DNA from: an uncultured Bacilli bacterium
Lineage (GTDB): Bacteria; Bacillota_I; Bacilli_A; RF39; UBA660
Assembly (NCBI GenBank): GCA_944329445.1
Contig: CALVIH010000012.1
Coordinates: forward strand, 1 to 34,608
Length of the DNA: 34,608 nt
Direction: 5' to 3'
A program made the translations under genes and the position numbers. Positions 1,922 through 29,643 of the stretch are shown here, piece after piece. The notes beneath the pieces are model-generated. The model was not told the DNA's origin. It saw nothing but the letters and a program-made list of their open reading frames with translations, and did not search any database. The number at the start of each line of letters is the position of its first letter. The stretch's first letter is position 1.

Positions 1922-2309
1922 GTTGGTATTATTTATTGTTTATCTTTTTTTAGTTAATGAAAATGATGTTAGTCCTGCTATTTCTTATGAAAATGAATAT
2001 GATGGTAATGTGTCTGATATAAGTGTTTCTTTTTCTAACGGAATAAATAGTAATAACATGAAAGAAGTGTTTGATAGATATAGTTCTGAATATTATGTTT
2101 ATGAAATTAAGGTAAAAGATAAAAATGTTGCTGTTTCTTGTAACGACATTGATTCTTGTTTAAAAAAGGTTTACGAATCAGAGGATAAATTATTTGAAAT
2201 ATCATTTGCGGCAACCGGTTTTAACGTTCAAGAAATATCAATGCTAGCGTATACGGATAGTATAGTTCCGTTTTTAAACGAAAACAATTTAACTTATAAA
2301 GTTAATTAA
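1902..2309 (+). CDS. Small exported or membrane-anchored protein, unknown function
   Basis: A 135-residue protein with a Lys-Lys N-terminus and a hydrophobic stretch over residues 4-17 that reads as a signal peptide or membrane anchor, followed by an extracytoplasmic domain with two cysteines (in a VSCNDIDSCL segment) that could form a disulfide. A GTG at 1893 is in frame, but I chose the ATG at 1902 because the GTG belongs to the ribosome site GGTGATT, a spacing seen for many genes here. The start lies within the 3' arm of a terminator-like hairpin. The gene converges on the mnmL-mnmM fusion and their stop codons overlap by 4 bases. No family recognised. Confidence 0.6.
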   Translation: MKKYLFLLVLFIVYLFLVNENDVSPAISYENEYDGNVSDISVSFSNGINSNNMKEVFDRYSSEYYVYEIKVKDKNVAVSCNDIDSCLKKVYESEDKLFEISFAATGFNVQEISMLAYTDSIVPFLNENNLTYKVN

Positions 2310-3766
2310 CCGAGTTGTTTATAGCTAGGGTTAATTTCTATTAAATAAGGAGCATTTTTATTAGTGGTGTTATGGTAAGTTAAATATTTAATGTTATTTT
2401 TATTTAAATAATCTATTATTTCTATACTTTCTTTTTTTCCTTCTTCATGAGGATAGCATGTAACTAGTATTATTCCTTTTTTGTTAAGCATTTTAATGTT
2501 TTTTTTGATTGCGTTTAATGTAGAGATATGATTGGTTGTTATACTTTTATCTCCACCTGGTAGATAACCTAAATTAAATAGGACTAAACTTATTTTATTT
2601 TTATATTTTTTCAAAACAATATCTATGTTTTCATGACTATCATTAATTAAAGTTACGTTATCCACAGCGTTTTTATCTAATAATTTTTTAGTGTTTTCAA
2701 TCGCTTTTTTTTGAACATCAAAAGAAAATACTTTTTTTGCTAATTTAGATAACATAAGGGTATCGTTTCCATTACCGCACGTTGCATCAACAACTATGTC
2801 ACCTTTTTTAATAAACTCATTACATATTAAGTTTACCCGGTTAAGAATACTTTTGTTAAATCCTTGATAAGTTCCTCTTCGTTTAAGTTCTTTATCAACG
2901 TCGTTTAGAACGCTTACTTTTTTTAACGTCCAAACCGGTGCGATTAGATCTTCTTTTGCACCATCACCAGTTAATCGATGAATAACTATTTTTTCATTTA
3001 ATTCTTCGATTTGGTCACAAACTATGTTTACGTATTCTTCTTTTGTTAATAGGTGGAACGTTGTTTTTTTATAATAATTTTCAAGAGGGGTGTTTTTAAG
3101 TACGTGAAGCATATGTATTTTAATCCCTTGAATATCTAGTTTATTTAGGTGTTTAATGGTATCCATCATCATTTCATGGGTTTCATAAGGAAGCCCATTT
3201 ATTATGTGTACAACTACGTTGATGTCTTTTTCTCTAAGTCTTTTAACACACGCATCAAAGCAGTTTAAATCATGACCTCGGTTTATTAATTTTAAGGTTT
3301 CGTTATGCATACTTTGAAGACCTAATTCTATGGTTAAAAAAGTTCTTTTGTTTAGATCAGACAAATATGCTAAACATTCATCGCTAATTGCATCAGGCCT
3401 TGTCCCAATGTTTATTCCAACAACGTTTGGAAAAGTTAGTACCTTTTCAAATTTCTCTTTTAAAACTTTTACGGGTGCATACGTGTTTGTGTTAGCTTGG
3501 AAATAAGCAATGTATTTTGTATCTGGCCACTTATTATTTAGCTTTTGCTTTATTTTATTAAATTGGGTTAGTAAATCATCATTTTTATCTCCTGCAAAAT
3601 CTCCTGATCCTTTCGCGGAACAAAAAATACAACCACTACCATTTTTAAAGTTAGGGCATGAAAATCCTCCGTTTAGACTAACTTTAAATACCCGACATCC
3701 AAATCTTTTGGTTAAATCATAATTTAAAGTATGATAACGTTTATTATCTAAACTATATTTAAACAT
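2306..3766 (-). CDS. mnmLM: MnmL-MnmM fusion: radical SAM enzyme plus tRNA wobble-uridine methyltransferase
   Basis: A 486-residue fusion of two proteins that are usually separate neighbours (YtqA and YtqB in Bacillus). Residues 1 to about 300 are the YtqA/MnmL radical SAM family (TIGR01212), with the cluster-binding cysteines at 37, 46 and 49 (C-x8-C-x2-C; the CP-N...GCIFCS signature). Residues about 305-486 are the YtqB/MnmM methyltransferase, with the SAM-binding DATCGNGNDT at 327-336 and the family signature NLGYLPGGDK at 398-407. MnmL and MnmM together convert cmnm5(s2)U to mnm5(s2)U at position 34 of tRNAs reading split codon boxes, without MnmC. The ATG is preceded by GGTGAT. It is transcribed divergently from the leucine T-box and ends 4 bases inside the convergent gene. 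Fusions of this pair are known, so both activities are probably retained. Confidence 0.9.
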   Translation of the reverse strand: MFKYSLDNKRYHTLNYDLTKRFGCRVFKVSLNGGFSCPNFKNGSGCIFCSAKGSGDFAGDKNDDLLTQFNKIKQKLNNKWPDTKYIAYFQANTNTYAPVKVLKEKFEKVLTFPNVVGINIGTRPDAISDECLAYLSDLNKRTFLTIELGLQSMHNETLKLINRGHDLNCFDACVKRLREKDINVVVHIINGLPYETHEMMMDTIKHLNKLDIQGIKIHMLHVLKNTPLENYYKKTTFHLLTKEEYVNIVCDQIEELNEKIVIHRLTGDGAKEDLIAPVWTLKKVSVLNDVDKELKRRGTYQGFNKSILNRVNLICNEFIKKGDIVVDATCGNGNDTLMLSKLAKKVFSFDVQKKAIENTKKLLDKNAVDNVTLINDSHENIDIVLKKYKNKISLVLFNLGYLPGGDKSITTNHISTLNAIKKNIKMLNKKGIILVTCYPHEEGKKESIEIIDYLNKNNIKYLTYHNTTNKNAPYLIEINPSYKQLG

Positions 3767-7934: not shown

Positions 7935-7942
7935 GGGGGGGG
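7935..7942 (+). repeat. G8 homopolymer at the ribosome-binding site of the first SANT gene
   Basis: Eight consecutive G end 9 bases before the ATG at 7952 and take the place of the Shine-Dalgarno sequence. No other ribosome site is visible. Slippage would change both the strength and the spacing of this site. Confidence 0.8.
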
Positions 7943-7951
7943 TAAATATAT

Positions 7952-10030
7952 ATGAATCAAAGAATCTGGACTAAAGAGGAAGATGATTATATAAAAGATA
8001 ATTTTGGAAACAAAACTTTTAGTGAAATGGCAGAACATATTGGTTGTTCAATAATTACAGTTCAGAAAAGAGCGAGATTTCTAGGCTTTGATTATGAGAA
8101 AAAAACACTAAGAAGATGGAATGAAGAAGAAATAGAATTATTAAAAATAATGGCACCAAAGTATTTGAATAAAACTATAGCAAGAAAATTGAATCGTTCT
8201 ATTAATGAAGTAAATAAAAAGGCTAGAGAATTAGGAGTTGAATTAATCTTTAAAAGACCAGTGTGGAAAAAATGGAAGTTGAAATTTTTAAAAGAAAATA
8301 TAAATAGCCTATCATTATCTCAAATTCAAAAAGAATTAGAAGTAAACTATTATCAAATCATGGATAAACTAGATGAACTTGGTATAGAATATAACAATAA
8401 TTCTTGGAGCGAAGAAGAGATAAATATTTTAACCGAATTATCTGGTAAAGTATATATAAGAGAGATTGCTAAAGTTTTAAATAGATCTGAAGGCGCTATT
8501 ATATCTAAAGCAGATAAATTAGGATTAGATTATATTACTTTAAAAAAAGTTTATACAGAAAAAGAATTAAAATACATAAAAGATAATTGGGGTATTATTG
8601 CGGTAACTGATATAGCAAGAAATTTAGGAGTAAGCAGAATAATGGTTCAAACTCAAGCAGATAAAATGAATCTTCCAAAATTAGGTAATAATCCATATAG
8701 AAAATGGACTGAAGAAAAATTAATAGAATTAAAAAGATTATCTTCCAAGAAATCTATAACTGAATTAGCTAAACACTTTAATACGACCAACGATGCGATT
8801 ATAACTATAGCTCATAGAAACGGAATATATTTAAATGATGATAAGATTCATTGGACTGAAGAAGATAATGCGGTTTTAAGAGAATTATCAAAGAATTTAG
8901 ATTTATCAGAAATAGCAACCAAAATGAATAGAACTACTTCTGCTGTTCGTTTACAAGCAGAAAGACAAAATATTAAAATTATACCGAATAAAAAAAATAC
9001 TTTAAGTGTATGGACTGAAGAAAATAATAAAGAATTAAAAAAGTTAGTTAGAGAAGGTAAATCTTTGTTAGAAATTTGTAATATAATGAATAAAAAAGAT
9101 GGTATAGTGTTAAAAAAAGCCAGGGAATTAAATTTAGATATAAAAACAGAAGAACAAAGACAATGGTCTGAAGAAGAAATTGCTAGATTAAAAGAGTTAT
9201 CTAAAACACAAAAAATAAGTGAATTAGTTAAAGAATTAAACCGTACGAGTAGCTCAATAAAAGCAATGGCTAAGAAATTAGGAATTAATATAATGAGTGA
9301 TAGAAAAAGTTGGACTGAAGAAGAATATAAACTTCTTGAAAAATTGACTATGATTGAGAAAAAAACTCCTAAAGAAATAGCAGAGATACTTGGAAGAACT
9401 GAAGATGCAATTATTATTAAAATAAATAGAAGAGGGTTGCAAATCCAAACAAATGACAAAAGATTTTGGACAAAGGAAGAAGAAACTTTATTATCTGATT
9501 TATGGGGAACAGAATCATTTGAAACAATCGCAAAGAAATTAAACAGAACCGTATCATCAATTAAAAATAAGGCATTTCTTTTAGGCTTAGGATCTGCAAT
9601 AGAAAGTAATTATAATGGTTTAACAATCAAAGATATTAGTGATTTGTTGGGTGTAAACATAAATACAGTAAGTGTAAACTGGATCGGGTTAGGATTAAAA
9701 TATAAAGTTCAAAAAATATCAAAATCAAGGAGTTATAGATATGTAGAAATAAAAGATTTATATGAGTTTTTAGAGAGAAATCAAAATATATGGGACAGTA
9801 GGAATTTAGAAAAAAATATTTTGGGAACAGAACCAGAATGGTTGAAAGAAAAAAGAAAGCGAGATATAAAACAGAATCCAGATATTGAACGACCAAATTT
9901 GACTAAGCAGCAGTTAATACTTGCAAGAAAGTTCTTTTTAGAATTAAAAGAAGAAACAAAAGAACAAGAAGAATCAACTATAGATGAACAAGGCCCACAA
10001 TTATCTTTAAAAAGAGGTAAAAGAAGATGA
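7952..10030 (+). CDS. Multi-SANT/Myb-repeat DNA-binding protein A (11 repeats + HTH)
   Basis: A 692-residue protein made of tandem units of about 50 residues with the pattern [RK].WT.EE...L..L......eIA..LnRs..aI..KA..LG, that is, three helices with a conserved Trp at the start as in Myb/SANT domains. I count 11 units over residues 1 to about 553, beginning near 1, 54, 104, 150, 200, 249, 299 and then about every 50. Unit 3 (WKKW...LKENINSL) and unit 5 (YIKDNWG...IARNL) are divergent. Residues about 554-620 form a different helix-turn-helix (LTIKDISDLLGVN...), followed by a conserved 'EPEWLKEKRKRDI' block and a charged tail. Its TGA overlaps the ATG of the next gene by 4 bases. Multiple DNA contacts are expected; target and function are unknown. 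Confidence 0.85.
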   Translation: MNQRIWTKEEDDYIKDNFGNKTFSEMAEHIGCSIITVQKRARFLGFDYEKKTLRRWNEEEIELLKIMAPKYLNKTIARKLNRSINEVNKKARELGVELIFKRPVWKKWKLKFLKENINSLSLSQIQKELEVNYYQIMDKLDELGIEYNNNSWSEEEINILTELSGKVYIREIAKVLNRSEGAIISKADKLGLDYITLKKVYTEKELKYIKDNWGIIAVTDIARNLGVSRIMVQTQADKMNLPKLGNNPYRKWTEEKLIELKRLSSKKSITELAKHFNTTNDAIITIAHRNGIYLNDDKIHWTEEDNAVLRELSKNLDLSEIATKMNRTTSAVRLQAERQNIKIIPNKKNTLSVWTEENNKELKKLVREGKSLLEICNIMNKKDGIVLKKARELNLDIKTEEQRQWSEEEIARLKELSKTQKISELVKELNRTSSSIKAMAKKLGINIMSDRKSWTEEEYKLLEKLTMIEKKTPKEIAEILGRTEDAIIIKINRRGLQIQTNDKRFWTKEEETLLSDLWGTESFETIAKKLNRTVSSIKNKAFLLGLGSAIESNYNGLTIKDISDLLGVNINTVSVNWIGLGLKYKVQKISKSRSYRYVEIKDLYEFLERNQNIWDSRNLEKNILGTEPEWLKEKRKRDIKQNPDIERPNLTKQQLILARKFFLELKEETKEQEESTIDEQGPQLSLKRGKRR

Positions 10031-12390
10031 AGCAAAAATTTTATTTGACTGAAGAAATGGTAGATGAATTAAAAAATATATGGAATACTAAACCATTGTA
10101 TAAGATTGCTATAGATTTCCATACAACAACAGAAACAATAAGAAAAAAAGCAAATGAGATTGGTCTGGAAGAATATAAAAGTAATCGTTGGACAAAAGAA
10201 GAGGAGGAACTTCTTCGTGAGTATTCAAAAAAATATGTTACAAAGACAATAGCAAGAAAATTAGGAAGAAGTTATTTAGCTGTTCAAAAGAAGGCCGTTA
10301 AGTTAGGTATTGAATTACATAGTACACCTGATCCATGGAAAAAATGGATGATAGATTATTTAAAAGATAATATTAATAAGCAACCTATAGGTAAAATAGA
10401 ATCAATGATCGGATTAAGTTATCACTCAATATTAACTAAGTGTAAAGAATTGGGAATTGATTATGTTAAAGAAAACTGGACGGATGATGAAATAAAAATA
10501 TTAAGAGAATATGCTAATAAGTGTCATTATACTGAGTTAACAAAAGTTTTGCCGAATAGAACGATTGGTGCAATTGCTGCAAAAGCTTATGAATTAGGAA
10601 TTGAAACAATATCTACATATACAAAGTTAGATGATAAACAAATCCAATATATAAAAGATAATTGGGGAGATATGCCTGCTACAGAAATAGCAAGAAACTT
10701 AAAAATTAGTATTGGTATTTTAAATAGATATAAAAAGGAATTAAATCTTCCAAATACAGGACAGCAAAAAAAATGGACTGATGAGAAAATTAGTGAATTA
10801 AGAAAAGACGCTAAAATGAAAACTAGGAATGAACTAGCTAAGAAGTACAAAACATCACCTGCACAAATCTCTGCAGTTGCTAGAAAAAATAATATTAAAC
10901 TGACAGATTCAAAACTTGTATGGACTGATGAATTAGTTAGTCAATTACAAAAATTAATAGACCAAGGATTAGGAATAAGTGAAATTTCAAAAGAAATGGA
11001 TATGAAAGCATCATCAATTAGACAGCAAATTAGAAAAATGAAGGGTGATGAGTTTATCAATCCAAGTTCAAAAAGTAAAAGATGGATGGATGACGAAGTT
11101 AATAAATTAATTAGTTTATCTAAAATATATACAACTGAAGAAATAGCTGAAATACTTAATAAAACTGAAAGACAAATATATAACAAAGCAGTAAAACTTG
11201 GAATTCAAATAAATAGAAATAAACAAAACTTATGGACTGATAAAGATACTCAAACACTAATTAATTTACATGATAATTATGAACTTCACATTATTTCAAA
11301 AATTATGGGGAAATCTGAGGCAATAATTCGTGAAAAAGCACAAGTTTTAGGATTAAAATTAAAATTTAAAGAAAGAACAGCTTGGTCTTTAGATGAAGAA
11401 CAATTATTAAAGGAATATGCAAAAAATTATACGATAAATGAAATTGCATATATTCTAGGACGTACTACTTCGTCAGTTAATGCAAAATTAAGATATATGG
11501 GAATTAAAGCTGTTCAAAGTTCGAGGTTTTGGACAAAAGAAGAGGAAGAAGAATTAAAAAGACTATCAGATGATTTTTCAATAGAAGAAATTGCTAAAAA
11601 AATGAATAAATCTTATGATTCTATTGTTGCAAAATCATATCAATTGGGAATAAGAACAAAAAATTATTCTAATAAAAGATGGACAAAGGAAGAAGAAACA
11701 GAATTATTGGAGTTACTAACTTCCTATTCATCATTTGAAGTTGCAGAAATATTAAACAGAAGTGAAGAAGCGATAGCTTTAAAAGCGATTAATTTAGGGT
11801 ATAATATTGATTCAAAGCATAGAAAATGGACAGAGGAAGAAGAAACTATGTTATCTGATTTATGGGGAACAGAATCAATAGAAAATATTGCTAAAAAGTT
11901 AAACAGAACTGTTTCTTCGATTGTAAATAGAGTATATGTTCTTGGGCTTGGATCTCAAATTGAAAATAATTATGATGGACTTAGAATTCAAGATATTTCT
12001 GATATATTTCAAGTTAATAGAAATGTTATTTTAACGTCATGGGTAAGTTTAGGATTAAAATTAAGTTTTAGAAAAAGATCAAATTATAGTGTATATTCTT
12101 ATGTTCAAATAAAAGATTTATATGAATTTTTAGAGAAAAATCAAAATATATGGGATAGTAGAAATTTAGAAAAAAATCTTTTAGGAATTGAACCTGAATG
12201 GTTAAAGGAAAAAAGAAAACGAGATATGGGACAAAATTCAGGTGTTGAACGACTAAATTTAACAAAACAGCAATTAATACTAGATAAAAGTTATTATTTG
12301 GATTCAGAAATGTCAAAAGAGAATACGGAGCTTAGTGAAAATACGATTACTCCTAGATTAATTAAAATAAAAGATAATAAAAAAAGGTGA
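10027..12390 (+). CDS. Multi-SANT/Myb-repeat DNA-binding protein B (13 repeats + HTH)
   Basis: A 787-residue paralogue of protein A with the same plan. I count 13 Myb/SANT-like units up to about residue 645, then the helix-turn-helix module (LRIQDISDIFQVN...), the 'EPEWLKEKRKRDM' block and a basic tail. Units 1-7 correspond one-to-one with units 1-7 of A, including the odd unit 3 (PWKKWMIDYLKDNINKQ) and unit 5 (YIKDNWGDMPATEIARNL). The extra two units lie in the middle-to-late part. The last unit is nearly identical to that of A even at DNA level (27 identical bases at 9491-9517 and 11851-11877). It starts on an ATGA overlap with A, which implies translational coupling. A typical bacterial regulator carries one or two such domains, so 13 is exceptional. 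Confidence 0.85.
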   Translation: MKQKFYLTEEMVDELKNIWNTKPLYKIAIDFHTTTETIRKKANEIGLEEYKSNRWTKEEEELLREYSKKYVTKTIARKLGRSYLAVQKKAVKLGIELHSTPDPWKKWMIDYLKDNINKQPIGKIESMIGLSYHSILTKCKELGIDYVKENWTDDEIKILREYANKCHYTELTKVLPNRTIGAIAAKAYELGIETISTYTKLDDKQIQYIKDNWGDMPATEIARNLKISIGILNRYKKELNLPNTGQQKKWTDEKISELRKDAKMKTRNELAKKYKTSPAQISAVARKNNIKLTDSKLVWTDELVSQLQKLIDQGLGISEISKEMDMKASSIRQQIRKMKGDEFINPSSKSKRWMDDEVNKLISLSKIYTTEEIAEILNKTERQIYNKAVKLGIQINRNKQNLWTDKDTQTLINLHDNYELHIISKIMGKSEAIIREKAQVLGLKLKFKERTAWSLDEEQLLKEYAKNYTINEIAYILGRTTSSVNAKLRYMGIKAVQSSRFWTKEEEEELKRLSDDFSIEEIAKKMNKSYDSIVAKSYQLGIRTKNYSNKRWTKEEETELLELLTSYSSFEVAEILNRSEEAIALKAINLGYNIDSKHRKWTEEEETMLSDLWGTESIENIAKKLNRTVSSIVNRVYVLGLGSQIENNYDGLRIQDISDIFQVNRNVILTSWVSLGLKLSFRKRSNYSVYSYVQIKDLYEFLEKNQNIWDSRNLEKNLLGIEPEWLKEKRKRDMGQNSGVERLNLTKQQLILDKSYYLDSEMSKENTELSENTITPRLIKIKDNKKR

Positions 12391-12395
12391 TTACT

Positions 12396-13457
12396 ATGAA
12401 AGGAACAAAGCGGGAATTTACAGAAGAGGAAATACAATATATAATTAATAATTGGGGAAAAGAGTCTGCTCATAGCATGAAGAAAAAGTTTAATTGCTCA
12501 TGGTATGCAGTTTGTAAGGTAGCAGAAAAGCATGGATTAGAAATACCTAAATCTAATGAGTGGACAAACGAAGAGATTGAAACTTTAAAATTATTATCTG
12601 ATAAATATCATTATTCTGAAATAGCAAAAATTATGAATAAAACAGAAAATGCCATTTATATAAAAGCAAGAAGATTAGGAATAACTTTAATACAAGATAG
12701 AAGAAAATGGACAAAAGAGGAAGAAACCATGTTATCTGATTTATGGGGAACTAAATCTATTGAAGTTATAGCAAAAACTATGAAGAGAACCGTTTTTTCA
12801 TTAAAGGTTAAAGCAGTAAGAATGGGGCTTGGACCTATGGTTAGAAATAATTATGATCTTATTACAGTATCTGATATGTGTGATTTGCTTAACGTTACTC
12901 GTGATAGAATTACAAATACATGGATTAATTTAGGGTTAAATTTAAAAAAGAAAAGGTTAACTAATAATATGTCATATTATGTAATTACATGGAATGATTT
13001 GATGGATTTTTTAGAGAAAAATCAAAATGAATGGGATTCAAGATGTGTTGAAAAAAATATGCTTGGTACTGAACCAGACTGGTTAAAAGAAAAAAGAAAA
13101 CGAGATATTGAAGAAAATCCTCTTTGGTATCGTAAGTGGACAGAAGATGAAAAAAAGCAGGTAGAAAATTTATTTAAATCTGGTAAGGATTATTTAGGAA
13201 TTGCTGAAATTATAAATAGAAGTGAATGGTCAGTTGCTAATTTGCTTAGGAATATGGGTTATAGTTATATGCTTCCACAATTTTGGAAGGGTAAGGAATT
13301 AAAATATTTAAAAGAAAATTATAAAGATATGACTTATTCAGAAATCGCAGAGGAACTTGGAAGAACAACTAAAGCAATTGGTGCTAAAGCCGAAGAACTG
13401 GGTTATCAAAAAAGACTTATAAAATCAAAAAATAATGGTGGTGAAAGTAATGGCTAG
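12396..13457 (+). CDS. Multi-SANT/Myb-repeat DNA-binding protein C (5 repeats + internal HTH)
   Basis: A 353-residue short relative of A and B. Three Myb/SANT-like units (residues about 1-155; the third reads KWTKEEETMLSDLWGTKSIE, matching the last unit of A and B) precede the shared helix-turn-helix (ITVSDMCDLLNVT...) and the 'EPDWLKEKRKRDI' block. Then, unlike A and B, two more units follow (YRKWTEDEKKQVENLFKSG and FWKGKELKYLKENYKDMTYS). I place the start at the ATG at 12396: an in-frame GTG at 12387 is part of the ribosome site AAAGGTGATT. The gene is coupled to B by close spacing, and its end overlaps the sigma-factor gene by 8 bases. Confidence 0.85.
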   Translation: MKGTKREFTEEEIQYIINNWGKESAHSMKKKFNCSWYAVCKVAEKHGLEIPKSNEWTNEEIETLKLLSDKYHYSEIAKIMNKTENAIYIKARRLGITLIQDRRKWTKEEETMLSDLWGTKSIEVIAKTMKRTVFSLKVKAVRMGLGPMVRNNYDLITVSDMCDLLNVTRDRITNTWINLGLNLKKKRLTNNMSYYVITWNDLMDFLEKNQNEWDSRCVEKNMLGTEPDWLKEKRKRDIEENPLWYRKWTEDEKKQVENLFKSGKDYLGIAEIINRSEWSVANLLRNMGYSYMLPQFWKGKELKYLKENYKDMTYSEIAEELGRTTKAIGAKAEELGYQKRLIKSKNNGGESNG

Positions 13458-14097
13458 GAAATTATCATTAGATGAAACAAAAAAATGTTTAAAAGCATGG
13501 CGAGAACTTGCTGATAAAGAGGCATTGGAAGTTTTAATGATCAGCAATGGTGGATTAGTTGGGTACATTGCTAAAAAATATTTAGGAAAAGGTTTAACTT
13601 TTGAAGAATTACAGTCAGCTGGTAACGAAGGTTTATTAAATTCAATTAATAAATTCGATTATAATGAAAGAGCAATTGAAGGATTTAGTACTTATATTTC
13701 TACAGCAATTGAAAATCAAATTAGGATGGAATTAAGAAAATATAACAAACATAGTCATGTACTAAGTTTTGATCAACCAATAGGTCAAAATAAAGATGGA
13801 GATGAACTTAAAATCGAAGACATTGTTGGTACTGATGCCGATCAATTAATAGATGATATAATATCCGAAATGAAAATAGATATTGTTCGGGATGCCCTAC
13901 AATGTTTAACATCTAGAGAACAACAGATCATTTTATTACGATACGGACTTGATGATGTACATAGAAAAACGCAAGATGAAGTGGCAAAGATGTTTGGATG
14001 TTCCCAGACTACAATTGCAAAACAAGAACAAAGAGCGTTGACAAAAATGAGACATCCTAGAAATACAAGAAAATTAAAAGATTTTATAGAAGAATAA
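13450..14097 (+). CDS. Sigma-70-family RNA polymerase sigma factor
   Basis: A 215-residue sigma factor. Region 2 is residues about 30-95 (LVGYIAKKYLGKGLTFEELQ, NEGLLNSINKFDY, then FSTYISTAIENQIRMELRKY, the core-binding and -10-recognising part). Region 4 is about 140-205 (LTSREQQIILLRYGLDD...TQDEVAKMFGCSQTTIAKQE, a -35-binding helix-turn-helix). There is no region 1.1, and region 3 appears short, similar in size to sporulation or general-stress sigma factors. The in-frame GTG/ATG codons upstream are inside gene C. I chose the ATG at 13450, preceded by GGTGGTGA. It is the last gene of the multi-SANT operon, overlapping C by 8 bases, so the SANT proteins and this sigma probably work in one regulatory system. 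No anti-sigma gene is adjacent. Confidence 0.85.
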   Translation: MARKLSLDETKKCLKAWRELADKEALEVLMISNGGLVGYIAKKYLGKGLTFEELQSAGNEGLLNSINKFDYNERAIEGFSTYISTAIENQIRMELRKYNKHSHVLSFDQPIGQNKDGDELKIEDIVGTDADQLIDDIISEMKIDIVRDALQCLTSREQQIILLRYGLDDVHRKTQDEVAKMFGCSQTTIAKQEQRALTKMRHPRNTRKLKDFIEE

Positions 14098-20942: not shown

Positions 20943-22973
20943 GTGGCTTTAACCGAAAGCGAGTTAAAGAAAGAAAAAAACTACCTTGAAAAAACATCAA
21001 AGGAAATATCTGAGCAAATAGATATTTTAGGAAAACAAATTCATGTTAAGGAAAGCGAGTTAACTGAGTTTAAAAAAGTTTTGTGGGAGGATAAAGGTAG
21101 CATCGATAAGGTTGAGATGCAAACTGGCCTTATGTCATCGGAACTTGAAGCAGGATTTATGCTAATGAAGATGGAGTATTATAAAAAACTTTTAAAAGTA
21201 GAATATTCGCCGTACTTTGGAAGGGTTGATTTTAAAGAAGATAATGAGGAGTTAAAACCAATATACATAGGTCTTACTAACGTTGAAAAAGATCTTAATT
21301 ATTTCGTTCATGATTGGCGAAGTCCGATTGCAAGCTTATTTTATGATTACGGAATAGGGCCTTGTAAATATGAAACACCAGATGGGGACATAACTGGTTA
21401 TATGTCTTTAAGAAGGCAATATAAAATAGAAAATAACAAGTTGATAAGGGTATTTGATAACGATTTAAACGTGGTTGATGAGTGTTTGCAAGAAGTTTTA
21501 TCGGAAAGTTCATCAAGTAAAATGAAAAACATAGTTAACACCATTCAAAAAGAACAAAACGAAATAATAAGAAACGTATCAAATAAACACCTTATAGTTC
21601 AAGGAATTGCAGGTTCAGGAAAAACATCGGTCGCGTTACATAGGATAGCATTTTTGTTATATAAGATAAAAAATTTAAAATCTTCTAACGTACTTATCTT
21701 TTCACCAAACAACGTGTTTTCTGAATACATTTCAAACGTATTACCAGAACTAGGAGAGGATAATACGGGTGAAACTACCTTTCATGAGTTTGCGATAAGT
21801 TATGCTAAAGAGTTTAAGAAAACAGAAACTTTTACGGATTTTATTGAAAGGTTTTACACCGGAAAAGAAGCTAATCCAAAGCTAGTATCATTTAAACTCT
21901 CAAAGAAGATGGTAGACGTAATAGATAATTATGCAAAAGAGCTAGAAAATAGCATAAGAATAACTGATGATATTGAACTTAAAATAGAAACCATAGAAAA
22001 AAGTTATTTAAATAAGCTTTTAAAAGATAAGTATGATAGACTTCCATTATTTGAAAGAATAGATAAAATGGCTGAGCACTTATGTGATAAAACTGGTGTT
22101 AGTTATGGCAAGGGAAAGCGGGGGTTTATAAAGCAAATTAAAGAGCGCTTAAGTATAAAACCAAATTTTAAAAAAATATATGAAGATTTATATAAGAGTA
22201 ACGCTTTTATAAGTGAGTATAAAAAGGAAGAATCTCTTAAGTTAAACACAAAGGAAATTAAGTATGAGGATGCGCTATGTTTTATATATTTAAAGGGATT
22301 GTTAAATGGTTTTCCATACAGCAATTTAATTAGGCAAATAGTTGTTGATGAGGCACAAGATTATAACGAAATGCAATACATAATTTTAAGCAAGATATTT
22401 AAAAGAGCATCATTTACTATTTTAGGTGATGTAAACCAAACAATTAATCCATACATTAAGTATGATACGTTAGAAGTATTAACTAATATTTTAAATGAAA
22501 ATAGTAAATACGTAGAGTTAAATAAAACGTACCGTTCTTCAAAAGAAATAATAGAATACACTAATAAAATATTGGGCTTGAAATACGTAAGTGCGATAAG
22601 AAAAGAAATCAACATACCAGTTAAGTTTAGGGATGATATAAAACAAACAGAAAACGACATATTAACTTTAAAAGAAAAATATAAATCAGTTGCAATAATT
22701 ACTAAAAGCAAACAAGAAAGTGTTATGCTGTATGAAAGATTAAAAGAAAAAATAGAAGGTATAAGTTTAATGGAAGATAGTGATAAAGAATTCAATAAGA
22801 ATTTAGTTATCGTACCAAGTTATCTTGCCAAAGGATTAGAGTTTGACGCCGTAATATCATACACTGACAAAGAAAACATATACAACAAAAATGAACGATA
22901 TTTGTTCTACGTAGTTGCAACAAGATGTCAACACGAATTGATAGTATATAATCCCCCAAAAGCATTTAATTAA
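20943..22973 (+). CDS. helD: HelD-like UvrD-family helicase (RNA polymerase recycling factor)
   Basis: A 676-residue superfamily 1 ATPase. The N-terminal 80 residues form a charged coiled-coil arm (ESELKKEKNYLEKTSKEI...), as in HelD proteins that reach into the RNA polymerase secondary channel. Walker A GIAGSGKTSVALHR is at 221-234 and Walker B VVDEAQDYNE near 467-476. Motif IV-like LNKTYRSSKEI and the terminal YVVATRCQHELIVYNPP follow. The family removes or recycles stalled RNA polymerase and can affect rifampicin tolerance. It is shorter than Bacillus HelD (about 770). The start must be the GTG at 20943: the frame is closed upstream at 20934, and the ATG at 20938 opens only a 4-codon frame. 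GGAAGGAG is at 20924-20931. Confidence 0.88.
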   Translation: MALTESELKKEKNYLEKTSKEISEQIDILGKQIHVKESELTEFKKVLWEDKGSIDKVEMQTGLMSSELEAGFMLMKMEYYKKLLKVEYSPYFGRVDFKEDNEELKPIYIGLTNVEKDLNYFVHDWRSPIASLFYDYGIGPCKYETPDGDITGYMSLRRQYKIENNKLIRVFDNDLNVVDECLQEVLSESSSSKMKNIVNTIQKEQNEIIRNVSNKHLIVQGIAGSGKTSVALHRIAFLLYKIKNLKSSNVLIFSPNNVFSEYISNVLPELGEDNTGETTFHEFAISYAKEFKKTETFTDFIERFYTGKEANPKLVSFKLSKKMVDVIDNYAKELENSIRITDDIELKIETIEKSYLNKLLKDKYDRLPLFERIDKMAEHLCDKTGVSYGKGKRGFIKQIKERLSIKPNFKKIYEDLYKSNAFISEYKKEESLKLNTKEIKYEDALCFIYLKGLLNGFPYSNLIRQIVVDEAQDYNEMQYIILSKIFKRASFTILGDVNQTINPYIKYDTLEVLTNILNENSKYVELNKTYRSSKEIIEYTNKILGLKYVSAIRKEINIPVKFRDDIKQTENDILTLKEKYKSVAIITKSKQESVMLYERLKEKIEGISLMEDSDKEFNKNLVIVPSYLAKGLEFDAVISYTDKENIYNKNERYLFYVVATRCQHELIVYNPPKAFN

Positions 22974-22985
22974 ATGCTTTTTTTC
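22958..22985 (+). terminator. Terminator of the HelD-like gene
   Basis: AAAAGCATTTAATTAAATGCTTTT (24-base perfect palindrome, 22958-22981) runs into T to 22984 and contains the stop codon. Confidence 0.85.
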
Positions 22986-23009
22986 GTTTTACACAGTTTT
23001 TTTAAAACC

Positions 23010-23040
23010 TTGACGGGGGGGGGGTATTTGATATTATAAA
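23010..23040 (+). promoter_or_regulatory. Promoter with a G10 spacer tract, probably phase-variable
   Basis: TTGACG at 23010-23015 is a near-consensus -35. TATTAT (23032-23037) or TATAAA (23035-23040) serves as -10, with a spacer of 16 or 19 bases. The spacer holds ten consecutive G at 23015-23024 (the first is also the last base of the -35). Changes in G number would alter -35/-10 spacing and switch expression of the operon starting at 23097, as in known phase-variable promoters. Confidence 0.75.
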
Positions 23041-23096
23041 CATAGAAAATATTAAAATAAGAAGGTGTAAAAGTGGAAAAAGAAAGAAGGATAAGC

Positions 23097-24734
23097 GTGA
23101 AGTGTAGTAAGTGCAATTATGAAAATAAGGATACAAGTAAGTATTGTGAAAATTGTGGAGCTGATTTGAAAGAACAAATTAATTTAGAAAGTAATATTAA
23201 TAATAATAATTTTTACCAAAATGAAGGTCAGTATCAAAATAATAATAGCATGAATACTTTAGAAAATAGTAATACTAATATTTTTGATGCTAATACTTTT
23301 AATGGTTCAGCAAATAATAATTTAAATTATACTAGTAATGAATTTAAGATAATGTCTGAACGAAATATTATAAATGAAACTCAAGACATTAATAATACAT
23401 CTATGCGGTCACAAACAAATCCAAATATTTACCAACAGTCCGTTAATTTGGTTAATACACAACCAAATAATATAAATAGTAACGAGAAGGAAGTTGTTGA
23501 TAAAAAAACAAAGGTATCATTCATTATAGGTATAGTAGCGATAATTCTATCTTTCCTACTAAATATTTTTGTAATACCATTATCAGTAGTGGGATTAGTG
23601 TTTGGAATAAAAAGCAAAGATAAATCAAAGAAAAAAATAATAGGTATTATATTAAATATACTAAGTATGGTTATTGCTATTATTCTTATCATAGTCGGTA
23701 TAATATTGAATTTATCTGGTGAAACAAATACATATTATGGTAGTGGTTATGAGTTAGAATATAATAAAAACTGGACTATTACTGAATTGTCTGATGGTCA
23801 AGCATCATTGCAATATAGATATCAAAATTCATATTTAGTTCCAGTAGGAAAAAGTACATTAACACAATATACAAATAATTTAAATTGTGATTTTGAAGAA
23901 AGCAGTTGTAAAGAAAGTTTATATAATGAATTTTATGATTATTGGAGCACCAACATGCTAAGTAATTCATTATATTTATATAAAGGCACTAATTTATTTA
24001 TGAAATTAAAAGATGATATTTATTATGCTACATATGATTATGGTACCTCTAAAGATAATATAAGAGGTAAGAATTATTTGATAGTTTCTAAAGAAAAAGA
24101 TATTATATTATCTTTTATGTCTAACGCTGAAGCCGAAAATGTAAAAATGTTGGATAGGGAGATAATTAAATTATTTAAACAAATTAATATAGATGACAAT
24201 TCTAATGTAAATGTGATTGAAGATGATGAATTAGGCGAAATGTTAGATTCAATGAGTAACTGGAATAGATACGCTGAATTAAGAAGTGGAACTTTAGGCA
24301 AAAAAGCTAATATTAATGGTGGATGGCGAATATTAAGTGATTCAGAACAATATTGGGAATTCAAAGATGGAAAGTTTTGGTGGTATAAGTCAGTTAATGA
24401 TTTAAATGATAATTATTGGTACGGAACAACTGAGATTAAAACAGGGTTAGTAGGTTTAAAGTCTATTGGTTTAGATGAAACTAATCTTAAAAGAGTTCTA
24501 TCAATGGGAAATGGTAAGATAGGAGAAAAAGATATATATACTGTAATTTGTAAACCAACAAAAATAATATCTGATGGAGAGGATAAAAGTTCTACCAATA
24601 TTCCAGAAGATTCAGAGTGGAAATATGTCTGGATAATAGTAAATCACGGAGATGAAGGAATCGAAGGTCAGGTTGCGGATTATAATGGTTCTTTCACAAT
24701 TGATACCTCTTATTATGTAAAGATAAAAGATTAA
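23097..24734 (+). CDS. Zinc-ribbon membrane protein with large outer domain (first gene of the G10 operon)
   Basis: A 545-residue protein. It begins with a zinc ribbon, K-C-S-K-C...Y-C-E-N-C-G-A (cysteines about residues 3, 6, 17 and 20). A linker rich in Asn, Ser and Gln follows (to about 140), then two or three membrane segments (about 142-210, DUF4190-like by look) and an outer domain of over 300 residues with many aromatic residues. I place the start at the GTG at 23097, not the GTG at 23073: the two sister genes start M-K-C-x-K-C or close to it, and AGAAGG sits 6 bases before 23097. It is the first gene after the G10 promoter and ends 16 bases before the next gene. Function unknown; a surface or envelope-sensing protein is likely. 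Confidence 0.75.
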   Translation: MKCSKCNYENKDTSKYCENCGADLKEQINLESNINNNNFYQNEGQYQNNNSMNTLENSNTNIFDANTFNGSANNNLNYTSNEFKIMSERNIINETQDINNTSMRSQTNPNIYQQSVNLVNTQPNNINSNEKEVVDKKTKVSFIIGIVAIILSFLLNIFVIPLSVVGLVFGIKSKDKSKKKIIGIILNILSMVIAIILIIVGIILNLSGETNTYYGSGYELEYNKNWTITELSDGQASLQYRYQNSYLVPVGKSTLTQYTNNLNCDFEESSCKESLYNEFYDYWSTNMLSNSLYLYKGTNLFMKLKDDIYYATYDYGTSKDNIRGKNYLIVSKEKDIILSFMSNAEAENVKMLDREIIKLFKQINIDDNSNVNVIEDDELGEMLDSMSNWNRYAELRSGTLGKKANINGGWRILSDSEQYWEFKDGKFWWYKSVNDLNDNYWYGTTEIKTGLVGLKSIGLDETNLKRVLSMGNGKIGEKDIYTVICKPTKIISDGEDKSSTNIPEDSEWKYVWIIVNHGDEGIEGQVADYNGSFTIDTSYYVKIKD

Positions 24735-24750: not shown

Positions 24751-25341
24751 ATGAAAATGAAATGTGATAAATGTTATTTTGAAAATAGTGATTCAAATAA
24801 ATTTTGCGAAAATTGTGGGAATAATTTAATGATAAATAATATAAAAGAAAACAAAAATAATTTGGAAAATGATATTAACACACAGTTAGATAGATATAAA
24901 AAAATTTCAAAATATTTGAGTAATAAGATAGTTTTATTTTTATTTTTAATTATATTTGGTTTAACATTTATATATTCGCTTATAAGTGCATATGTTGATG
25001 CCTCACAATGTGAACCTGGTGGATGTAGTGGATTTTTCATTATTTTTATACCTATAATTGCATGTATATATTCAATACCATTATTTGTGGGTCTAATATT
25101 AAGTTTAATAAATCTTGCAATAAAAAAACACATAATGTTAATATTAGAAATTATATCTTGTGTATTTTCTTTGAAAATCCTTTTATATGCAGGTTTTGTG
25201 GAAAGCTATGATAGATTTATGATATTTAAATATATAATTGTAATATTAACAGTTATTTTAATTATTATATGTCTATTAAAGTTTATATTAAGTATTTATT
25301 TGAATTTAACGAAAGGAAAAAATAATGTTTTTTTGAAATGA
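24751..25341 (+). CDS. Zinc-ribbon multi-pass membrane protein
   Basis: A 196-residue protein with an N-terminal zinc ribbon (K-C-D-K-C...F-C-E-N-C-G) and four hydrophobic segments at about 51-73, 88-120, 124-148 and 153-185. Between segments 1 and 2 lie two cysteines (QCEPGGCSG) that face the other side of the membrane and could be linked. The start has two ATG codons 6 bases apart; I keep the first (GGTGAGGG ahead). It lies 16 bases after the previous gene, in the same operon. No function can be read. Confidence 0.75.
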   Translation: MKMKCDKCYFENSDSNKFCENCGNNLMINNIKENKNNLENDINTQLDRYKKISKYLSNKIVLFLFLIIFGLTFIYSLISAYVDASQCEPGGCSGFFIIFIPIIACIYSIPLFVGLILSLINLAIKKHIMLILEIISCVFSLKILLYAGFVESYDRFMIFKYIIVILTVILIIICLLKFILSIYLNLTKGKNNVFLK

Positions 25342-25366: not shown

Positions 25367-26359
25367 ATGGAATATAATTTTGATAATAATGATATAAATA
25401 AAAAAAATATAGAAAATACTAGTAAAAAAAGAAAGATAGAAATTCTAATAGGTGGTTTATGCATTTTATTATTTGGATGTTTTTTGACGTTCATTACCTT
25501 TTTCTTTTTTGGACCTTTTTTAGGTAGCCCATTTTTAATTGGTGGAGTAGTTTTTATTTCAAATTACGTTTTTAATAATAAAATTATAAAAATTGTTATG
25601 AGTGTAGTACTTAGTATATTATTCATATTATTAATATCAATTGCTGCATATTTTTTTTGGTCTAGACCTGGTAAAAAAGACACAAGAAATATTATGGAAG
25701 AACAAAAAAAGTATTTTTATTATTCTTTAGAAGATTATACATACACTTATGAATATTTTGATGACATTTGGTGTAAAAATGGTGTTCGTTGTTATCAGTA
25801 TAAAAGATATAAAATAGATTTTTATGATACCCTTGGTAAAAAACAGCAAATTATTATAGATGGTGATGATACTTTTGAAGAAAGCCTATCGTCATCAATT
25901 GAGACTTATTTAAATAGCAAATTTAAAATATATGAAGAAAAAATAAATAAAAAAATAGAAAAAAGTGAATTATATGAGTTTTTAGATAAAAAAAGAAATA
26001 TTAATGCAAATGATGAATTTTTTATTAATTCTTATATTGATCTTTCTAAAATAGATGACACCATTAATTATAGTGATATACAAAAAGGTGTTTATTTAAA
26101 AAGTCTTGATTTCAAAAACCTTAAAGAAAATAATATTAAGGCAGAATTGAGAAGTTTTATTAAACTAAATTGTTCTATTAATGATATAAAAAAAATAGAA
26201 GATTATTTAGTGGATATTTATGGAGAATATTTAAAATTATTTGAATATGATAATATTCAATATTCATTTGATATTTATGATATCGAAAATAAAAATATTG
26301 AATATATATTAAAAATTGATAATTCAAATAATTTTTATTGGGAAGTTGAGGAGAAATAA
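25367..26359 (+). CDS. Membrane protein without zinc ribbon, outer domain unknown
   Basis: A 330-residue protein with a polar Asn/Lys-rich start, three hydrophobic segments (about 26-46, 48-66 and 77-97) and a C-terminal domain of about 230 residues rich in Tyr, Asp and Lys. It lacks the cysteine ribbon of its neighbours but has the same size range and build. GGAG precedes the ATG. The next gene starts 2 bases after its stop, so it belongs to the same operon. Family not recognised. Confidence 0.7.
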   Translation: MEYNFDNNDINKKNIENTSKKRKIEILIGGLCILLFGCFLTFITFFFFGPFLGSPFLIGGVVFISNYVFNNKIIKIVMSVVLSILFILLISIAAYFFWSRPGKKDTRNIMEEQKKYFYYSLEDYTYTYEYFDDIWCKNGVRCYQYKRYKIDFYDTLGKKQQIIIDGDDTFEESLSSSIETYLNSKFKIYEEKINKKIEKSELYEFLDKKRNINANDEFFINSYIDLSKIDDTINYSDIQKGVYLKSLDFKNLKENNIKAELRSFIKLNCSINDIKKIEDYLVDIYGEYLKLFEYDNIQYSFDIYDIENKNIEYILKIDNSNNFYWEVEEK

Positions 26360-26361
26360 AA

Positions 26362-27570
26362 ATGAAATGTATTAAATGCAATTATGAAAACAGTGATATA
26401 GCTAGATTTTGTGGAAAATGCGGAGCTGATTTAAGAAAGAAAGTTAATGTGGTAGAAAAAAATGGTTTGAGTAATAAAAAAGTTTTTACTATTTTGTTGA
26501 TAGTATTTTTGATATTGGTAGTAGGCATATTAATATTATTGTTAAATAATAAGAATGATAATGATTTGGAAGATAAAAAGATAATAATAAAGTTTGAAAA
26601 GAAGAATTTTGTTAAAGATGGTTTTGTAATAGATCATTATCAAGATAATAAAGTGTATGAATGTAGTTATATGGTACCTAAATATATGATTAAGGATAGT
26701 AATACTCTTAAAGGAGCAAGTTATTTGTTTCAAAATAAAAATTATAAGTTAGTAATTAATTATAATTATTATGAAGATGAAAATGATTTGAAATATTTTA
26801 AAGGTAGTGAAGAATTTAAAACTGGAAAAAATTATAGTTATTACAAAAGTGATAGTTTAATTAAAGTATACTTTAAAAATAACAAAAATATGTACCAAAC
26901 TGTTGAAATTTCAGTACTTAGTTTAGATGGTAGAGATTATGCTCTAGATAAATCATACAAAAATTTATTATCTGATATGAATATAAAAAGTGTAAGTAAA
27001 GAAAAATATTCTATTACTAAAAACAATAATAATTATGAAGGAAATATAAATTATAATTATTATATTGATGAAGATAATAAAATGACTGTTAAAGCTAGTT
27101 ATAAGGTTTCTAGTGATAAATATGGAAGTAATTATGATAGTGCTAATGCAGACTTTCAATTATACATTGATGATTCTAAAATAAACTTTTATGAAGGTGA
27201 AATAACTAGAGATTTATCTTCGGTAAAAGATCAAAGTAAAATAAATATTTATTTTTTAAAAGAAAGTAATTTAGATTTAAAGCAAGATGCGGTAACTTCT
27301 TTAGTATGGGCTGTTAATCAAACCGCTTTTACAAATGTAAATGAAGATAAGGTAAATATATCAATAAATAACTTTAATTATAATGGATATGAAATTAACT
27401 ATTATCATATTAAGTCTGATAATAATAGCGCACATAATGAAAGAATAAAAGCTTATTTGAAAATTAAGGATGACTTATACTATGTTGTTCAAATATATGG
27501 TGGAGATTCAAAAGAATTATCTTTAGACATGTTAAAGGAATTTTTACCTGTTGAGATTATAATAAAGTAG
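26362..27570 (+). CDS. Zinc-ribbon single-pass membrane protein with outer domain
   Basis: A 402-residue protein: zinc ribbon M-K-C-I-K-C-N-Y-E-N...F-C-G-K-C-G-A-D-L (cysteines 3, 6, 17 and 20), one membrane segment at about 41-62, then an outer domain of about 340 residues. The ribbon is nearly the same as in the gene at 23097. The outer part is Asn/Lys/Tyr-rich. GAGGAG precedes the ATG. Directly after its TAG is the remnant of another zinc ribbon. The fold and role are unknown; a cytoplasmic ribbon plus an outer domain is common in uncharacterised Firmicutes envelope proteins. Confidence 0.75.
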   Translation: MKCIKCNYENSDIARFCGKCGADLRKKVNVVEKNGLSNKKVFTILLIVFLILVVGILILLLNNKNDNDLEDKKIIIKFEKKNFVKDGFVIDHYQDNKVYECSYMVPKYMIKDSNTLKGASYLFQNKNYKLVINYNYYEDENDLKYFKGSEEFKTGKNYSYYKSDSLIKVYFKNNKNMYQTVEISVLSLDGRDYALDKSYKNLLSDMNIKSVSKEKYSITKNNNNYEGNINYNYYIDEDNKMTVKASYKVSSDKYGSNYDSANADFQLYIDDSKINFYEGEITRDLSSVKDQSKINIYFLKESNLDLKQDAVTSLVWAVNQTAFTNVNEDKVNISINNFNYNGYEINYYHIKSDNNSAHNERIKAYLKIKDDLYYVVQIYGGDSKELSLDMLKEFLPVEIIIK

Positions 27571-27625: not shown

Positions 27626-28969
27626 ATGAGAAAGTGTGATAATAAAGTATTACTTATAAATCCGGAAGATTCAAGGAACAAACTTAACTTCGAAGGAATA
27701 ATTGTAAATGAGCCTCTGGATTTAGAGGTTATATATACAGTTTTAAAAGATAATAATATCAAAGTGTATTTTTATGATTTCTTAATAAGTCAAAAACAAA
27801 CCCTTTATGAAGTAATAAAAAAACTAAATCCGAATTATATTATTGCAAACGCTAATGTAAATCAGATACCTTTTGTTTTTGAATATTTTGAAACCGCAAA
27901 AAAAATAGATAGTAATATTAAAACTATATTAACAGGCAATTATGTTGAACATAATTATAAAAGTATAAAGTCTAAATATTTAGACTTTATTTCAAGATCC
28001 TATGATCCTAAATGTATACTAAATATAATAAATAACAAAAAAATAAAAGATATTAATGGTTTATGTTATAAAGAAAAAGGCGTATGGAATTATAATAATC
28101 TTACATCTTATGATATTAATGAACTACCGTTGGTAAACAGAACTCATTTTTATAAAAATAAAGATAAATATAGATATTTAGAATTGTTAGGCGCATGTCA
28201 AATTAGAACATCATATTCTTGTCCTTATAATTGTAATTTTTGTTATAGAACCTCATTAAATTGTGGAAAGTATAAAGCTAAAGATATAACAAAGGTTGTT
28301 GATGAAATAGAAAGTATAAAATCTGATAATATATATATTGTTGATGATGACTTTTTATTTAATAAAAAAAGGTTATATACTTTTGTCGAAGAAATTAAAA
28401 AAAGAAAAATAAAAAAACAGTATATATGTTATGGAAGAGTGGATTTTATAATTAACAATAAAGACATCATAAAACAGTTAAAAGAAATAGGTTTTTACTA
28501 TATACTAGTTGGGTTAGAAGCTATAAATGATAATTTTTTAAATGATTATAATAAGTTGATAGGAGAAGAAAATAATAAAGAATGTGTACGATTTTTAAAT
28601 GAAATAGGTATTAATTGTATGGGAATGTTTATAATTGATTTAAATTTCAAAAGAAAGGATTTTTTTAATTTATATAAATGGATATACAATAATGATTTAA
28701 AACATGTTGCGGTTTCTATATTTACACCAATGCCGGGTACAGAATTATATAATGAATATAAAAGTAAACTAATTACAAATGATTTAACCAAGTGGGATTT
28801 TCTTCATTTAGTTGCAAAACCTAAATTTTTAGGTAAAAGACAATTTTATTTTTATTATTATATTTTGGTAATAAAGTTATTTAGACTTGCTATCAAAAAC
28901 AAAATATATGATTTTATAGATTGGAAGAAATTAAGAAAAGAATTTTTTAAGTTGGTGATTAAAAAATGA
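27626..28969 (+). CDS. B12-binding-type radical SAM protein
   Basis: A 447-residue protein. Residues about 7-160 look like the cobalamin-binding-type Rossmann domain seen in class B radical SAM enzymes (VLLINPEDS..., a helix and strand pattern ending LTGNYVEH), without the DxHxxG motif. The radical SAM domain has its cluster cysteines at 199, 203 and 206 (SCPYNCNFCYR), an IVDDDF segment, and then GLEAINDNFLNDYNK and FTPMPGTELY, typical of the HpnJ/BchE-like families. The C-terminus is very basic and may lie at the membrane. The substrate is unknown; relatives modify lipids, porphyrins and natural products. It shares a 4-base ATGA overlap with the next gene, so the two are translationally coupled. 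Confidence 0.8.
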   Translation: MRKCDNKVLLINPEDSRNKLNFEGIIVNEPLDLEVIYTVLKDNNIKVYFYDFLISQKQTLYEVIKKLNPNYIIANANVNQIPFVFEYFETAKKIDSNIKTILTGNYVEHNYKSIKSKYLDFISRSYDPKCILNIINNKKIKDINGLCYKEKGVWNYNNLTSYDINELPLVNRTHFYKNKDKYRYLELLGACQIRTSYSCPYNCNFCYRTSLNCGKYKAKDITKVVDEIESIKSDNIYIVDDDFLFNKKRLYTFVEEIKKRKIKKQYICYGRVDFIINNKDIIKQLKEIGFYYILVGLEAINDNFLNDYNKLIGEENNKECVRFLNEIGINCMGMFIIDLNFKRKDFFNLYKWIYNNDLKHVAVSIFTPMPGTELYNEYKSKLITNDLTKWDFLHLVAKPKFLGKRQFYFYYYILVIKLFRLAIKNKIYDFIDWKKLRKEFFKLVIKK

Positions 28970-29643
28970 AGAATGTATATGTTGTATTACCTAAATCGAA
29001 TACATTAATTTCAAAAATTTCTAAGATGGTAACGCATTATGAATATTCACATATTACAATTTCTTTGGATGATAATTTAAATGAGTTTTATTCATTTTCT
29101 AGGATATATAATGATGCGCCAATTATATCAGGCTTTGTTAAAGAATATAGATCACATCTTGCAAGTAAAAAAGGTGTGGATTTAAAATGTAAAATTTTTA
29201 AAATAGAAGTTAGTGATGATGTTTATAATGATATTAAAAACTATATAACTGATTTGAAGAATGATAATAAATTATTATTTAATTATTTATCAATGTTGTT
29301 ATTACCAATAGTTGGTGGTGTAAAGGTTATAAAGTCTTATAATTGTTGTCATTTTGTTGCAGAAGTTTTAAATAAGATTCCTAAAATTAATATGAATAAA
29401 AAATTATATAAATACAAACCAAAAGATTTTGATTTGCTGCTAAGTGATCGCTTTTTATACTTTGAAGGAGTTTTAAAATCTAATTATAAAAAATACAAAG
29501 GTATATATTTTAATAAAGTTAATTTTATATATAAGATTAGATGTAGTTTTTATTTTATTAATGAGGTAATATATAGAATTATTTTTAAAAAAGTTAGAAA
29601 AAAGTTCGATAATAAAAAGTATATAAAACTCTTGCTAAAGTAA
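28966..29643 (+). CDS. Permuted papain-fold (YiiX/NlpC-like) enzyme
   Basis: A 225-residue protein. A His29 in HYEYSHITISLDD and a Cys127 or Cys128 in SYNCCHFVAEVL are arranged His first, Cys later, as in circularly permuted papain-like proteins (YiiX, LRAT/HRASLS, permuted NlpC/P60), which act as amidases, peptidases or acyltransferases. Residues 146-225 are a strongly basic C-terminal extension. No signal peptide. It is coupled to the radical SAM gene by an ATGA overlap. A pairing of a radical SAM enzyme with a His/Cys papain-like enzyme points to two steps on the same molecule, possibly a lipid, but that is inference. Confidence 0.65.
   Translation: MKNVYVVLPKSNTLISKISKMVTHYEYSHITISLDDNLNEFYSFSRIYNDAPIISGFVKEYRSHLASKKGVDLKCKIFKIEVSDDVYNDIKNYITDLKNDNKLLFNYLSMLLLPIVGGVKVIKSYNCCHFVAEVLNKIPKINMNKKLYKYKPKDFDLLLSDRFLYFEGVLKSNYKKYKGIYFNKVNFIYKIRCSFYFINEVIYRIIFKKVRKKFDNKKYIKLLLK

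Follow-up and report, generated by a model that had tools for sequence, protein, structure and literature searches.

We analyzed a 34,608-nt contig of an uncultured Bacilli bacterium (CALVIH010000012.1 of assembly GCA_944329445.1, GTDB lineage RF39, UBA660; hereafter, the window) in which a run of ten G residues lies between the -35 and -10 elements of a promoter preceding an operon of membrane proteins. Considering the recurrence of this arrangement in the genome and the genus, differences of a single base among paralogous promoters, and the 17-nt spacers of relatives that lack a pure tract, the G10 run is very probably the slippable spacer of a sigma-70-type promoter that switches the operon on and off, and one of a set of such promoters. 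The effect of slippage on the -35/-10 distance, proposed in an initial annotation of this sequence, is thus supported by comparative evidence.

According to that annotation, TTGACG is directly followed by ten G that end 7 bases before TATTAT, and the tract makes up most of the spacer. The letters of the window (23008-23045, ccTTGACGGGGGGGGGGtatTTGaTATTATaaacatag) bear out both statements, with the refinement that the last base of the -35 hexamer doubles as the first of the ten G; the spacer is 16 nt long. In this AT-rich window, every other homopolymer is shorter than G10, with A or T runs reaching a maximum of 8. Promoter-like hexamer pairs, in contrast, are not in excess over chance (19 found against 27 expected), and the above-chance signal is the G tract together with the recurring conserved block, not the hexamer pairs. 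The intrinsic terminator of a UvrD-like helicase gene (fold z -5.3) separates this gene from the promoter downstream, so that the tract is intergenic and the promoter insulated. The coordinates of these and other features are collected in the table below.

The same arrangement recurs throughout the genome (1.17 Mb, 59 contigs). Seven runs of at least nine G were observed, compared to 0.14 expected for independent, identically distributed bases of this composition, and all seven sit in the same promoter context, namely, TTGAC, 0-4 bases, G10-11 and TAT[AT]TGATATTATNAACAT; this count includes the run on contig C37, which ends inside the tract, leaving only the TTGAC side visible. A relaxed search added G8 copies on C1, C5 and C7, and there is also a copy with an interrupted tract (C7:209, GGGGGAGGGGGG), one with a decayed tract (C18, TTGATGGGGGGATTTGCTATTAT), and a poly-G promoter of a different form (C4:16726). 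The genome has at least a dozen poly-G promoters. We considered the contigs that end inside tracts (C10 and C37) as proof of length heterogeneity and rejected this notion because repeated promoter sequence alone would break a short-read assembly.

Beyond this genome, 9 of the 18 genus genomes contain the pattern G9TATNTGATATT, whereas 41 further genomes drawn from the family and class lack it, and its reversed form had no match in genomes of the same genus, family and class. A search of approximately 85,000 species genomes yielded 30 stretches, 28 of which are metagenome-assembled genomes of this kind, with titles referring to uncultured Bacilli and to rabbit and other metagenomes; the two stray matches, in Helicobacter and Chlamydiae, have no TTGAC upstream and were judged to be due to chance. 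Viral contigs contained no match to the pattern, and a phage origin was rejected on this ground. When TTGAC-N(4-16)-TATNTGATATTRT was sought in the 18 genus genomes without requiring G in the spacer, 58 sites were recovered, about 49 of them with a G-rich spacer, whereas the reversed control gave at most one match. Other genera of the same family possess their own poly-G promoters: 10 of 54 family genomes match, with up to 44 matches per genome, including one (G034) with about 17 such promoters of two classes preceding secreted protein families. Outside the family, such promoters are rare within the class (6 of 341 genomes, one match each), and the reversed-pattern control was zero in the 54 family and 341 other class genomes. 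The flanks of the tracts differ in the other genera of the family, whereas the spacers remain near 15-20 nt, a combination that speaks for repeated origin of the same solution.

Tract length varies between paralogous promoters and between sister genomes. Among 90 pairs of near-identical promoters from the same genome (no more than 4 mismatches in about 45 flanking nt), 32 differ in the length of the G run, always by one, as do 9 of the 28 pairs with no more than one mismatch, and at one locus with closely similar flanks, a G9 run in one bin corresponds to a G10 run in another bin from the same rabbit sample. These observations bear on an alternative in which the tract is a fixed structural part of a specialized promoter, serving a dedicated regulator or setting the shape of the spacer, is maintained by that function and does not switch in life. 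Such a fixed element would be compatible with the concentration of most tracts at two spacer lengths, 16 and 17 nt, with the near-constant distance from the tract to an upstream box discussed below, and with the presence of mismatch repair genes. We nevertheless consider it unlikely, given that a third of the near-identical pairs differ in tract length, that interrupted or non-G spacers precede the same gene families, which implies that G is not needed for promoter function, and that unrelated genera of the family, with different flanks, again use pure G. We also rejected the notion that the long tracts result from lost mismatch repair, since mutS and mutL are each present in 17 of the 18 genus genomes.

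The spacer lengths point in the same direction as the pairwise differences, toward a slippable spacer. In the genus, the spacers with a pure tract measure 15 nt (2 sites), 16 nt (18), 17 nt (11), 18 nt (1), 19 nt (3), 20 nt (2) and 21 nt (1). Relatives with the same -10 block but a non-G spacer, in contrast, are 17 nt long in 7 of 9 cases, and internally interrupted tracts in 5 of 5, so that exactly 17 nt is found in 12 of 14 non-G or interrupted spacers compared to 11 of 38 pure ones (Fisher p = 0.0004, or 0.008 after merging orthologues). Because the fixed-spacer relatives sit at 17 nt and the pure tracts are scattered around this value, we read 17 nt as the working distance; promoters that are unable to slip would be kept there, and those that can slip would lie on and around it. 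At locus L150 (G007:C14), two genes of the PARCEL type combine the shared -10 block with ordinary 17- and 18-nt spacers and are apparently locked versions of the switch.

The proposed mechanism runs as follows. The promoter would be of the sigma-70 type, with TTGAC as the -35 element, TGaTATTAT as the extended -10 element and G10 as the spacer. Slipped-strand mispairing would add or remove one G, shifting the -35/-10 distance by one base; at 16 nt, as in the window, the promoter is probably weak or off, and with G11, at 17 nt, probably on. Single cells could thereby turn expression of the membrane-protein operon on or off in a reversible manner. Slippage at the window locus, its effect on expression, the ON length and the benefit to the cell are the steps that we infer.

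Several considerations weigh against this interpretation. The presence of mutS and mutL lowers slippage, without abolishing it. Neither the promoter pairs nor the sites entering the spacer counts are fully independent, homopolymer lengths in short-read assemblies may be off by one, and, with one assembly per species, lengths are compared between paralogous and sister-genome promoters. A sub-group of the form TTGACNNNN-G9..11, which precedes 'VGRPS' membrane proteins and some Big_2 proteins, has spacers of 19-21 nt and does not fit a simple rule equating 17 nt with the on state. Finally, some of the targets are not surface genes, in particular, a sigma factor and a GNAT acetyltransferase. The long spacers of the VGRPS membrane-protein family are found in promoters L079, L091, L100, L152 and L153 (19-20 nt).

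An additional feature of these promoters is a 9-mer fitting the DnaA-box consensus. A TTWTNCACA-like sequence (at least 8 of 9 positions) lies 13-14 nt upstream of TTGAC in 41 of 52 poly-G promoters of the genus and, in this genome, in 9 of 11 such promoters, compared to 0.19 in shuffles. The oriC/dnaA region of this genome contains eleven TTWTCCACA boxes, which the promoter 9-mer matches, making it, by sequence, the genome's own DnaA box. The distance from the box to the start of the tract is nearly constant (28-29 nt, standard deviation 0.8), even where TTGAC is shifted, and varies less than the distance from the box to TTGAC (Levene p = 0.044). These regularities raise the possibility, which we regard as tentative, that DnaA bound at the box contacts RNA polymerase, each added G shifting and rotating the box relative to the -10 element, by analogy with the Bordetella fim promoters, in which a C-tract lies between the activator site and the -10 element. 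Switching would then result jointly from the spacer and from activator phasing and would be tied to the cell cycle. In 6 of 47 promoters, compared to 0.03 in shuffles, another exact TTWTNCACA box follows the -10 element at a distance of 28-37 nt, which would also fit this scheme. However, the promoters share ancestry, so that conservation of the box is not independent evidence; the 9-mer may be read by another protein; the poly-G promoters of other genera mostly lack the box; and the box-to--10 spread is not significantly smaller than the -35-to--10 spread (p = 0.26). The second boxes occur in leaders L078, L144, L145, L097, L080 and L084, and several of them overlap the ribosome site or the start codon. 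Through the DnaA-like box, a random switch could be linked to the cell cycle.

The genes downstream of the poly-G promoters in the genus are largely surface or secreted, in agreement with the initial annotation, which had described the mechanism as one that switches surface genes. Among their products are short proteins with an N-terminal membrane anchor that resemble SipW-dependent TasA-type proteins, many of them encoded in tandem, each with its own promoter; in the genus of the window, the TasA/SipW assignment consists of sub-threshold profile matches, and only in a sister genus is it firmly supported. All 18 genus genomes encode a SipW-type signal peptidase. In other genera of the family, a BsaA-family protein (SipW-dependent; E = 5.5e-31) in G025 and a protein with a SipW-type signal peptide in G063 are located behind poly-G promoters. 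The structure predicted for a TasA-like protein has a predicted local distance difference test (pLDDT) score of 72, and Foldseek with this model gave no significant match. Other downstream genes encode PARCEL/DUF285 (PARCEL/BspA-type) repeat surface proteins and proteins combining the Listeria-Bacteroides repeat (Flg_new) with Big_2. In two species, a poly-G promoter precedes a type VII cluster in which four WXG100 proteins come after one of YukD size; these clusters are found at L097:4848-6375 (G000:C6) and L154 (G014:C18), with a 17-nt spacer in both species. Sigma-70 family factors, 41% identical to each other, are likewise located behind poly-G promoters in two species and are possible candidates for a phase-variable sigma factor. 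Located at L096:2361-4586 (G000:C5) and L082 (G012:C17), they are 742 and 806 aa long and carry extensive additional sequence at the C terminus.

More speculatively, the box-bearing poly-G promoters might constitute a phasome coupled to the replication initiator and controlling surface fibres, the type VII cluster and the sigma-70 factor, with such sets arising repeatedly in genera of the family and the sigma factor flipping a second layer of genes, a scheme that we consider less likely than not.

In the window itself, the operon encodes four membrane proteins, three of them with an N-terminal zinc ribbon. Thus, the earlier description of several membrane proteins with outer domains holds for the membrane proteins, and the outer domains are predicted from topology only; the predicted structure of the outer region of the first protein (pLDDT 39) is too poor a model to use. 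Two further genes, co-directional with the first four and separated from them by a 55-nt gap with no visible terminator, are uncertain members of the operon. The promoter, leader and first codons are near-identical to those of TasA-like gene promoters at G000:C18 and C7; this near-identity runs through approximately the first seven codons (MEKERRI) and ends inside gene 1, which suggests that a zinc-ribbon gene acquired a copy of the switch module. Beyond zinc-ribbon similarity, no orthologue of gene 1 was found in the genus. Repeated promoter blocks with shared leaders, some of them at contig ends, could also arise at an invertible promoter or a site-specific recombination locus in which the tract is incidental. 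We find this highly improbable: apart from the terminator palindrome, the surroundings of the promoter contain no inverted repeat, although no search aimed at recombinase genes was made, and the conserved block is asymmetric. An invertible promoter was accordingly rejected, flanking inverted repeats having not been encountered.

Features of the window around the G10 promoter.
Feature	Position	Strand	Remarks
Intrinsic terminator of the upstream UvrD-like helicase gene	22958..22981	+	perfect 12-nt inverted repeat followed by a T run
Promoter, leader and first codons	22987..23100	+	region near-identical to TasA-like gene promoters
DnaA-like box TTTTACACA	22987..22995	+	fits consensus TTWTNCACA; begins 23 nt upstream of TTGAC
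DnaA-like box sequences TTTTCCACA, TTTTACACA			putative DnaA targets
-35 hexamer TTGACG	23010..23015	+	direct sequence reading
G10 tract	23015..23024	+	proposed slippage site; direct sequence reading
TATTTGA between G10 and -10	23025-23031		direct sequence reading
Extended -10 TG-a-TATTAT	23029..23037	+	core TATTAT 23032-23037; genus-conserved block TATWTGATATTATNAACAT
Probable ribosome binding site AGAAGGTG	23060..23067	+	from sequence
Gene 1	23073..24734	+	553 aa; GTG start codon at 23073; zinc ribbon, two transmembrane segments, probable external domain
Gene 2	24751..25341	+	196 aa; zinc-ribbon membrane protein, zinc ribbon scoring below the curated cut-off
Gene 3	25367..26359	+	330 aa; membrane protein, no family
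Gene 4	26362..27570	+	402 aa; zinc ribbon, one transmembrane segment, probable external domain
Genes 5-6	27626..29643	+	radical SAM protein and a 225-aa protein of unknown family

Elsewhere in the window, a G8 run at 7935-7942 lies where a ribosome would bind, 10 nt before the ATG at 7952, and could be a translational slippage site or merely a strong Shine-Dalgarno sequence. At 7952-14097, three successive large proteins of repeated WTEEE-type helix-turn-helix units are immediately followed by a small sigma-70-like factor. A single 486-aa frame at 2306-3766 apparently joins a radical SAM protein to a SAM-dependent methyltransferase and resembles YtqA-YtqB.

If the slippable-spacer interpretation is correct, populations of these common uncultured gut Bacilli would be mosaics of surface types, which would matter for their persistence, for host recognition and for resistance to phages. 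Most known cases of homopolymer phase variation come from mycoplasmas and from Gram-negative bacteria of mucosal surfaces. The dense, genus-specific sets of poly-G promoters described here belong to a family of uncultured Bacilli with small genomes, recovered from animal gut samples. The mechanism itself is already known. A literature search of incomplete coverage yielded no report of poly-G promoters for this lineage, and their genus- and family-wide use appears to be undescribed.

The closest parallel among known systems is provided by repeats located within promoters: in Neisseria meningitidis porA, transcription of a surface protein depends on how many G the -10/-35 spacer contains and is altered by changes of a single base, and Mycoplasma hyorhinis vlp and Bordetella pertussis are listed among similar promoter repeats (PMC3899988). 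As in porA, the -35/-10 spacer is occupied by a poly-G of comparable length, but the promoters described here form an entire set within one genus of uncultured Bacilli, united by their -10 block and by a DnaA-like box upstream, and the targets include type VII secretion and sigma-factor genes. The similarity to vlp, from a relatively close lineage, consists in a surface gene family with a homopolymer in each promoter and a conserved leader. The vlp promoter tract is poly-A, however, whereas here the tract is poly-G, the products are SipW/TasA-like and PARCEL proteins rather than Vlp lipoproteins, and mutS and mutL are present. In Bordetella pertussis fim, a C-tract lies between the box of an upstream activator (BvgA) and the -10 element, and the -35 element is poor. 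The promoters described here similarly place the tract between an upstream factor box and the -10 element, but differ in having a G-tract, a good -35, an extended -10 and a DnaA-like box with a putative role. Compared with these systems, what is new here is the lineage, the unusual density of the promoters, their targets, and the unexplained DnaA-like box.
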